Positions 8,126-52,343 of a stretch of DNA of 64,000 bases are shown in pieces. The notes beneath the pieces are model-generated. The model was given only the letters and a program-made list of their open reading frames with translations, had not been told where the DNA came from and made no database searches. The stretch is from contig CALUVW010000003.1 of NCBI GenBank assembly GCA_944324315.1, positions 1 to 64,000 on the forward strand, read 5' to 3'. A program made the translations under genes and the position numbers. The DNA comes from Candidatus Gastranaerophilales bacterium. GTDB taxonomy: Bacteria > Cyanobacteriota > Vampirovibrionia > Gastranaerophilales > Gastranaerophilaceae. Numbering within the stretch: position 1 is the first letter of the stretch; every line of letters starts with the position of its first letter.

Positions 8126-8153
8126 AAAAGACGGGGAAATTCCCGTCTTTTTT
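8126..8153. terminator. Bidirectional terminator
   Basis: AAAAGACGGG pairs with CCCGTCTTTT (8142-8151). It ends the plus-strand secreted gene and abuts the 3' end of the minus-strand pilin-like gene. Confidence 0.85.
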
Positions 8154-8866
8154 AAAGTGATGACCAATAATTTTTATCAGACAGAGCTGTGCTTGTACAG
8201 GCTATACCATTAAGATCCGACTTTCCAGTTTTTGAACAGTATGTTTCTTTGTCAAAAAGAGTTCCGTCAGCACCCATTGGCAAAAGCTTTCCGTCATACA
8301 TTAGCTGAAATGTAAAAAGATCATGCCCCCATTTATTTGGTTTCTTTTTATAACCGTTTACATCTATGCTTATAAGAATATAATTGGTATCATTATTTTC
8401 TAAAAACATGTTCATACCATCTGCAATAATAAATTGTCCGTCATCCAATAGTGTCAACCTGATATTACTATTATTTGTATAATTTTTATATACGGATGAA
8501 CCGCTGGAATTATTTGGAACACAGGCATCAATATCATAGCTGGAACCATCAGCACAATCTCTTATTATTTTAAAATATTTTGTGAATTCATACTTAAATG
8601 TCCTTGTTGCTATATAATTTTCTGTCACTGGGCCACCATTATCGTAATTCATTTGCAGCACAGCTTGTTGCAACACAGAATAGCCTTTTTTAAGAGCTGT
8701 TTTTAATTGTTCATTTTGAGTTTTGTTAATTAAGACCGGTAAAGTTAAAGCAGCAACTACACCTATAATTCCTAATGTGATAAGCACTTCTGCAAGAGTA
8801 AAACCATTTAAACCCTTGCTATACTTGATTTTTCGGGGGGGGGCACTTAATAGCTTTATTTAACAT
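8152..8866 (-). CDS. Pilin-like secreted protein, out of frame at a C9/G9 tract
   Basis: Type IV pilin-like protein with a prepilin cleavage/methylation leader: GFTLAEVLITLGIIGVVAAL then a globular domain containing DVNGYKKKPNKWGHD. The strand-correct start is ATG at 8866-8864, preceded by AAGGAGG. Eight codons later lies a run of nine C (8835-8843). As written, translation stops after 15 codons. With eight C the frame joins the pilin leader and gives 237 residues; with ten it also stops. No alternative start lies between the tract and the leader. The gene is either phase-variable and OFF here, or the tract length is a sequencing error. Confidence 0.75.
8835..8843. repeat. G9 homopolymer in a pilin-like gene
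   Basis: Nine consecutive G on the plus strand (C on the coding strand) inside the first codons of the pilin-like gene. Such runs are very unusual in this AT-rich sequence; the only comparable one (51091-51100) is also beside a pilin-like gene. Confidence 0.95.
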
Positions 8867-9004
8867 AAATTATATTACCTCCTTTTTTCTAATTTTACTA
8901 TTATTTGAATTAATTTGTCAAATTTGTTGTAGGAGCTAGTTTATAGATGCTGAAATAAGTTCAACAGACAATCTTTAGTTGGTCTGGTGTAAGCTTGTAT
9001 ATCC

Positions 9005-51060: not shown

Positions 51061-51114
51061 ATGAGAGAATTATTAAGAACTGTAAACCTCGGGGGGGGGG
51101 CGATTTTGAGCTAA
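51061..51114 (+). CDS. 17-codon ORF with G10 tract; possible phase-variable start of the pilin-like locus
   Basis: ATG 51061 has a strong promoter and the ribosome site AGAGGAG seven bases upstream. The ORF reads MRELLRTVNLGGG and stops at 51112. It includes ten G (51091-51100). With eleven G, the frame would stay open through 52343, joining the pilin-like gene and giving about 427 residues; with nine or twelve it stops within a few codons. Either a phase-variable N-terminal extension or a short leader peptide is possible. Confidence 0.5.
   Translation: MRELLRTVNLGGGAILS
51091..51100. repeat. G10 homopolymer
   Basis: Ten consecutive G, ten codons into the ORF at 51061. Both this and the G9 at 8835 are preceded by TC on the plus strand (TCGGGG). 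Confidence 0.95.
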
Positions 51115-51167
51115 TTAGAGGCCAAGAAGCCCGGAGGTCAAGAAGTCAAGCAAGTTTACAAAATGTC

Positions 51168-51188
51168 ATCCTTAATTTATTTCAGGAT
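51168..51188. repeat. Dispersed palindromic repeat, imperfect copy
   Basis: ATCCTTAA-TTTAT-TTCAGGAT, one mismatch in the stem. It lies between the G10 tract and the pilin-like gene. Confidence 0.6.
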
Positions 51189-51412
51189 CTGTTCTTCCTT
51201 CCCTTATTAGGGAAGGATAAGAGGATGGGTAACAATTTCGGACGCATAGACGCCAAGAAGCATAGAAGCGAAGTCTTTAACGTAGAAAAGATAAACAATT
51301 TAAGTATTTTGTATGGAACGGCTACGTTCCCCCCTGTCTTCTCCCAAATCATGGAGGGGAAATCAGATACTCTCCCTTCACTCAAACATATAGCAAAAAC
51401 TATTCTAAGGGG

Positions 51413-51440
51413 TTGCAAAGGTCAAAAAATCTGTCATAAT
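51413..51440 (+). promoter_or_regulatory. Promoter immediately before the pilin-like gene
   Basis: TTGCAA (51413-51418), 16-base spacer, CATAAT (51435-51440). It allows expression independent of the upstream G10 locus. Confidence 0.55.
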
Positions 51441-51476
51441 AGTGATATATATCATCACAATTATAATGGAGAGTTT

Positions 51477-52343
51477 ATGAAAAAAATATTCGGATTTACA
51501 CGTTCAGAGAACGCAGCACATGTTGATACCAGTAACAAGAAACGTAAAGCCGCTTTCACTCTTGCCGAGGTCTTAATTACGCTTGGCATCATTGGCGTAG
51601 TTGCTGCTTTGACAATGCCTTCACTTATCGCTAAATTTCAGCATAAAGCATTGGAAAGTCAGTTTAAAAAATCTGTATCTGTTGTATCGCAGGTTATTTT
51701 GAAAACTAAAACAGATATGGGGCTTGATAATCTTTATTCGTATTGCACAGCCTATAGTTCAGCAGATGATCATTATTATAATGATGCTGAATGTTATAAA
51801 TATATGTATAAAAATTTGTTGGTTATAGAGTCACCTTATGCGGCAACTCCTGTAAATCCGCAAGATGCAATTTCAAAAAGTAATATAAAAAGAGAGGAAG
51901 GATCTATAAGAACATATAACGGCAAACAAACCGTTACGTCAGATGCTCTTGCAGCATCGGGTTATCCGATATTTTCAACTAATTTAATGCCCGATGGCAG
52001 TTTTGTTGATATTCAAATTAGAGAAAGAAACTTTATTGTTGGTGTCGATGTTAACGGGGAAAAAGGACCGAATAAGCTTGGTCATGATGTTTTTTTATTT
52101 ACACTCAGTAATAAGGACTTTTTAACTTATTTTGGAAAACCTGATAATAGTGTAACTGATGAAAAAGTTGAAGAAGATATTGCTAACGGTTCTTATCCTC
52201 AAGGATGGCAAGCAGAACGTGCAGGAAATCCATGTAATTTGGAATCAACACGTAAAGCAAACGGCGTCGGGTGTACGTATTATGCATTGAGAAATCAATG
52301 CCCTTATGATTCTTCAAAAAGTTATTTTGAATGTCTGCCTTAA
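51477..52343 (+). CDS. Type IV pilin-like secreted protein
   Basis: A 288-residue protein. A basic leader (MKKIFGFTRSENAAHVDTSN then KKRKA) precedes the prepilin motif AFTLAEVLITLGIIGVVAAL, so a prepilin peptidase should cut before Phe. The globular part has Cys pairs and the phrase VDVNGEKGPNKLGHDVFLF, shared with the gene at 8152. GGAGAG precedes ATG 51477. The frame is open upstream to 51101, so an N-terminally extended product is possible if the G10 tract shifts. Confidence 0.85.
   Translation: MKKIFGFTRSENAAHVDTSNKKRKAAFTLAEVLITLGIIGVVAALTMPSLIAKFQHKALESQFKKSVSVVSQVILKTKTDMGLDNLYSYCTAYSSADDHYYNDAECYKYMYKNLLVIESPYAATPVNPQDAISKSNIKREEGSIRTYNGKQTVTSDALAASGYPIFSTNLMPDGSFVDIQIRERNFIVGVDVNGEKGPNKLGHDVFLFTLSNKDFLTYFGKPDNSVTDEKVEEDIANGSYPQGWQAERAGNPCNLESTRKANGVGCTYYALRNQCPYDSSKSYFECLP

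Follow-up and report, generated by a model that had tools for sequence, protein, structure and literature searches.

Short homopolymers that switch surface genes are known from the poly-G/C contingency loci of Campylobacter jejuni. There, as in the genes considered here, a G/C run near 10 bases long lies in the 5' part of surface genes, a change of one base moves the gene between full length and an early stop, the genome is AT-rich, and glycosyltransferases are among the targets (PMC6321876, PMC4965091). Within C. jejuni, 53% of such tracts are G9 and 26% are G10 (PMC6321876). A second and more distant precedent comes from yeast carrying a low-fidelity ligase, in which strand-biased +1 insertions arise in short G/C runs, subject to flanking rules, near inaccurately sealed Okazaki nicks (PMC11461686). 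Literature searches on phase variation or pili in Gastranaerophilales/Melainabacteria gave nothing relevant.

The window, by which we mean the whole 64,000-nucleotide stretch of a Candidatus Gastranaerophilales contig that was analysed, holds a prepilin gene interrupted by a C9 tract and a second tract gene in the opposite coding orientation (Table 1). At the first gene, the minus-strand ATG at 8866 is followed by 23 nt and then nine C, and its frame reads MLNKAIKCPPPKNQV and stops, giving 15 residues with the stop at codon 16, while the frame of the prepilin itself runs open from the tract onward. Coordinates and translation agree with the first-pass annotation, which had placed the C9 run out of frame with this start and its AAGGAGG, and reading the frames bears out its further claim that one C fewer yields 237 residues and one C more fails to join them. 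Two additional C, for a tract of 11, would also join the frames, and 11 is the in-frame length for almost all related genes. Use of a downstream start by the window prepilin was ruled out, as its frame contains no ATG, GTG or TTG between tract and cleavage motif. The promoter-like site TTGACA-N18-TAAAAT ends at 8892, just 5' of the Shine-Dalgarno (SD) sequence; as a class, promoter-like sites upstream of tract genes showed no enrichment over shuffles. C7 matches in the window number 7, against 0.67 expected from shuffles.

Table 1. Features of the two tract genes in the window.
Feature	Position	Strand	Basis or remark
C9 tract	8835..8843	-	flanks TG...GA; G9 on + is the G-rich leading strand
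Shine-Dalgarno AAGGAGG	8878..8884	-	sequence
ATG start of tract-containing leader	8864..8866	-	sequence
AGCT box, first base at -12 from tract	8852..8855	-	sequence; motif established over 114 non-redundant flanks; constrained in 35 pairs
Sigma-70-like promoter TTGACA-N18-TAAAAT, upstream of prepilin start	8892..8921	-	11/12 matches
Prepilin frame, 227 codons + stop, out of frame with ATG; G↓FTLAEV cleavage motif	8152..8835	-	
ATG start of second tract gene, reads MRELLRTVNLGGGAILS stop	51061..51063	+	sequence
G10 tract	51091..51100	+	same replication orientation as first tract, opposite coding orientation
AGCT box of second tract (AGCTCAAAATCG, 51101-51112)	51109..51112	-	sequence
Prepilin frame with long leader, 414 codons + stop, OFF at n=10	51099..52343	+	

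The product of the first gene was described from its sequence as pilin-like, and this is consistent with a PF07963 prepilin methylation motif scoring 22.4 bits against the Pfam cut-off of 21.2 and with an AlphaFold2 model (mean pLDDT 90.6) that predicts a long helix at residues 4-56 followed by strands of a beta domain. A Foldseek search of solved structures (PDB) returned no significant fold match, and the C-terminal body is unmatched. The protein is type IV pilin-like with a lineage-specific body, and the products of tract genes more generally presumably function as pilins. Paralogues and orthologues of the window prepilin carry tracts at the equivalent place. The second gene (51061-52343, plus strand) has about 150 leader codons between its tract and the prepilin motif, and 25 codons 5' of that motif there is an internal ATG with GGAG.

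The window genes belong to a large and stereotyped set. The 1.88 Mb genome contains 119 G/C runs of at least 8 bases, against roughly 2-3 expected by chance at 34% GC by our own estimate, which upholds the earlier remark that a G9 run is striking in so AT-rich a genome; the features that deserve the emphasis, though, are the AGCT box and the rule, valid genome-wide, that ties tracts to the replication strand (both considered below), not the run as such. Length is exactly 10 in 97 of 116 catalogued tracts, and in 103 of the 116 the run, read as the C strand, has G on both sides. The first-pass annotation had proposed counting tract lengths in related genomes, and across 33 genomes of the genus our sums of flanked tracts come to 53 C9, 1162 C10 and 79 C11, with in-frame alleles found at 11 and the reversed-flank pattern near zero. 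Most species of the genus share the flanked C10 set. Of 127 genomes of the order sampled outside the genus, only 17 have flanked tracts by our subset counts, with a maximum of 12 per genome. A stricter motif search of GTDB genomes gave only gut-type metagenome assemblies among the matches listed, and the labels of these were mostly Candidatus Gastranaerophilales or uncultured bacterium. One was labelled ‘Fusobacterium sp. CAG:439’, an assembly that we take GTDB to place in genus CAG-439, Gastranaerophilaceae.

About 80-100 genes, prepilin genes for the most part, carry the cassette within their first 10-30 codons, with the tract 18-87 nt after an SD-ATG. Less frequent targets are sugar-coat genes, namely glycosyltransferases and a polysaccharide pyruvyl transferase (L083:7538-8488:-, L040:2177-2998:-, L091:5325-5849:- and L077:879-2999:-), and non-pilin cassette genes are less uniform in register than the pilins. 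We also observe two pairs of sites with identical tract flanks about 11 kb apart on one contig (G000:C2 94036/105069, L016/L018, and 98891/109924, L017/L019), which suggests either that a segment with two tract genes was duplicated in tandem or that the assembly has duplicated it.

The tract rules vary within the genus. Some species have few or zero flanked C10 tracts, and for most of the prepilins sampled in G006, G013, G021 and G027 a plain SD-ATG lies a few codons 5' of the motif. Another species, G002, has C12/G12 tracts with other flanks, ON and OFF genes mixed, and one contig on which tracts face both ways; because it differs in these ways, the strict rules are not universal. In this species (L338-L360) the G12 follows MKK...NPS within the flank AAAT-C12-GATGGG, and two opposite tracts lie 8 kb apart on contig C27. 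Prepilin repertoires, as gauged by matches to one pilin, can be very large, with 96 in G002 and 124 in G021, but 8-12 in G027 and G013.

Reading frames give the set its functional sense. From four species we scored 170 tracts preceded by an SD-start and followed by a frame of 150 codons or more; of these, 166 were OFF, leaving about 2% ON, and in 160 full length is reached only when n is 2 mod 3 (11 or 8). The distance from start to tract covers all residues mod 3, so that the codon register inside the tract varies while the overall register is constant. Among the 275 frames of a wider set, 268 run uninterrupted from tract to prepilin motif, some for more than 100 codons, and 256 of the 268 share the register. 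Open frames of this kind would be impossible by chance at 34% GC, and translation through the tract is therefore, on this sequence evidence, under selection despite the OFF state of the assemblies. Proportions of ON and OFF near those of free drift, which are typical but not strictly defining of SSR phase variation, are not what we find.

Natural alleles of the expected ON length do occur in other species. Twenty sites were fetched for a tract of 11, and 14 of the 18 that could be scored are ON and encode whole prepilins; among n=10 loci from GTDB contigs, 81 of 82 are OFF. A single-base change in length therefore toggles the gene between full length and early stop (166/170 OFF at n=10, 14/18 ON at n=11). 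The cleanest case is an orthologue pair from two species, L023 (G000, C10, OFF) and L192 (G020, C11, ON), whose leaders differ by one C alone, with two substitutions between tract and prepilin motif. A second pair also differs as 10 versus 11 and carries further changes beside the tract. Tract length is thus polymorphic among alleles of one gene, as seen between species with one genome per species, and the assemblies represent majority alleles. About 6% of tracts genus-wide have n=11, and if single cells resemble this sample of species, some 6% of tracts, a handful of genes, would be ON at once. The n=9 of the window prepilin is a minority OFF state of a cassette whose default is 10 and whose ON length is 11. 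With in-frame alleles at 11 and the one-C orthologue pair in hand, a phase-variable prepilin caught OFF in the assembly is the best-supported reading of the locus, as first suggested.

Some pilins could also be made independently of the tract. The first-pass annotation had held that homologues starting downstream of the tract would count against its reading, and while the window gene offers no such start, across the genus 33 of 268 genes contain, before the motif, an internal ATG with its own SD, from which, judging by sequence, translation could begin. As a separate observation, TTGACA/TTGTCA-like and TGTTATAAT-like sequence (translated CYNSD) recurs in the long leaders of L100-L128, L039, L049 and many others, sometimes with an ATG directly before GFTLAEV. 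It is possible that this is an internal promoter, and it may provide a second, tract-independent start in such genes.

Two further regularities concern the DNA rather than the protein. The first is orientation. Across four genomes, tract orientation switches in 5 of 216 neighbour pairs, where about 108 switches would be expected. In G007, which has long contigs, the switches fall only at the origin region, marked by dnaN and by a turn of GC skew to positive, and at a second point on contig 2 (581-638 kb), where the skew becomes weak and then turns and which we have taken as the terminus; G000, G004 and G032 each show one switch, in the terminus sense, in weak-skew regions. The G run lies on the leading strand, that is, on the lagging-strand template. 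The coding strand carries G in 67 genes and C in 34, so orientation is independent of the gene. Plain GC skew was rejected as the source of this pattern, as short G runs are only mildly strand-biased (858:589 for 3-mers and 156:89 for 4-mers) and 10-mers stand at 16:0.

The second regularity is the box. A GC dinucleotide starting between -14 and -10 is found in 91 of 114 non-redundant flanks, against 3-24 in equally wide control windows. Its commonest form is AGCT, which starts at -12 and shares the replication strand of the C run. Several species have the box, genes of either coding orientation carry it, and so do non-pilin genes, among them glycosyltransferases and a polysaccharide pyruvyl transferase. 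In 35 independent homologous pairs the box changes at 4.3%, against 9-14% nearby, and the bases touching the tract likewise change less than their neighbourhood. One pair had hinted at a hypermutable spacer between box and tract, and this was ruled out by the ordinary spacer divergence in the 35-pair profile. As the box is fixed relative to replication and not to transcription, it points to a probable DNA-level function.

We consider the best explanation, with a probability of about 70%, to be translational phase variation that is OFF by default and rarely ON, arising by replication slippage at a standard cassette. The cassette would consist of the AGCT box, about 8 nt, and YG-C10-GA; at the resting length of 10 the gene would be out of frame, and gain of one base, to 11, would give the full prepilin. 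Tract length would change when replication slips while the G run serves as lagging-strand template, and we propose that the cassette is locked to the replication strand because slippage is useful with G10 in that position. Each cell would then express few of its pilins, and we infer that switching is reversible within populations. The original suggestion of a slipped-strand mispairing site is thereby retained in kind, while the picture of a lone drifting repeat gives way to one copy of a standard cassette with a default of 10 and an ON length of 11.

Two counterpoints sit uneasily with free slippage: it predicts neither so sharp a length peak (at 10) nor so strict a single register, and an equal origin of 9 and 11 predicts ON-at-9 genes as common as ON-at-11 genes, whereas those at 9 are rarer. 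Loss of mismatch repair as a cause is contradicted by MutS, present in 32 of 33 species, and since MutS is present the slippage is not simply unrepaired. No genus-restricted trans factor was found, MutS being the one factor searched. A further, unlikely though testable, proposal is a dedicated replication-coupled mutation cassette, in which AGCT on the nascent lagging strand would fix the start of a primer of about 12 nt (or another nick-forming event), place the RNA-DNA junction at C10, and so program +1 insertions, locked to the strand, by which about 100 surface genes that are OFF by default would be switched singly. Given bacterial primer length, a primer ending at the run would start about 12 nt before it, which is the position of the box. 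That the box sets a lagging-strand primer or nick site, with the nick at the tract, is our conjecture.

Other explanations account for part of the pattern. The very sharp length of 10, the single register and the open frames behind the tract would all follow if the DNA stayed at 10 and a fixed fraction of product were made at the RNA level, either through +1 slippage of RNA polymerase or through -1 ribosomal frameshifting on C10/G10, the register being fixed as the sole shift that pays. We think this quite unlikely, since such an RNA signal should be conserved relative to the coding strand, as is expected of programmed frameshifting or transcriptional slippage, and we find no such conservation; tract and box instead follow the replication strand while genes run both ways, and in-frame n=11 alleles exist. 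A recombination cassette, with tract and box as a homology or recombinase site exchanging pilin leaders and bodies, would use uniformity to keep recombinants in frame and to avoid inversions. It would fit the uniform register, motif and orientation and the long repeated leader segments common to many pilins, but is very unlikely, as it leaves the OFF default and the in-frame n=11 alleles unexplained and the motif also occurs in unrelated single genes such as glycosyltransferases.

It is highly improbable that the tracts are truly 11, and ON, and under-called as 10 by assembly or base-calling. Homopolymers are error-prone, and the relatives identified by name are metagenome assemblies; however, the same 10 comes from different assemblers and projects, the same genomes also contain called lengths of 9, 11 and 12 whose effects on the frame are as expected, and it is implausible that a single base was dropped at over 1000 sites with others spared. 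KOPS and Chi are polar G-rich motifs, and the replication polarity of the tracts would suit a chromosome-organising motif of this sort lying in gene starts by happenstance. We regard this as the least probable explanation of all, because a position 18-87 nt after an SD-ATG, a fixed register and open frames would have no role in it, and tract-free species occur in the same genus.

Default-OFF phase variation at these cassettes would amount to one of the largest homopolymer switch repertoires in a single genome, here in a gut lineage that is uncultured and related to cyanobacteria. The replication-locked orientation and the adjacent box make it testable how leading and lagging synthesis and flanking bases set homopolymer slippage. 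There is also a warning for annotation, in that some 80 genes or more per genome would be called pseudogenes, truncated or mis-started in such assemblies, when they are probably maintained and switchable.

Set beside known systems, the tract genes resemble type IV prepilins and pseudopilins (PF07963, with GspG/ComG-like N termini) in a motif above cut-off, a conserved G/A↓FTLAEVLITLGIIG and a predicted N-terminal helix and beta domain, and they differ in a C-terminal body without a Foldseek match to solved folds, in leaders that in many of them reach more than 100 residues, and in having dozens to more than 100 relatives per genome in several species. Neisseria pilE antigenic variation, with its G4 and silent loci, likewise joins pilin diversity to a G-rich DNA element (PMC3547852); here, unlike in pilE, start and tract come with every gene, and switching consists of shifting the frame by one base. 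The insertions at yeast Okazaki nicks, which were seen in mutants and in short runs, offer a mechanistic lead and not a homology. The evidence supports placing the tract system, in kind, with the homopolymer contingency loci, so that the phase-variation reading first given for a single gene holds, and is enlarged.
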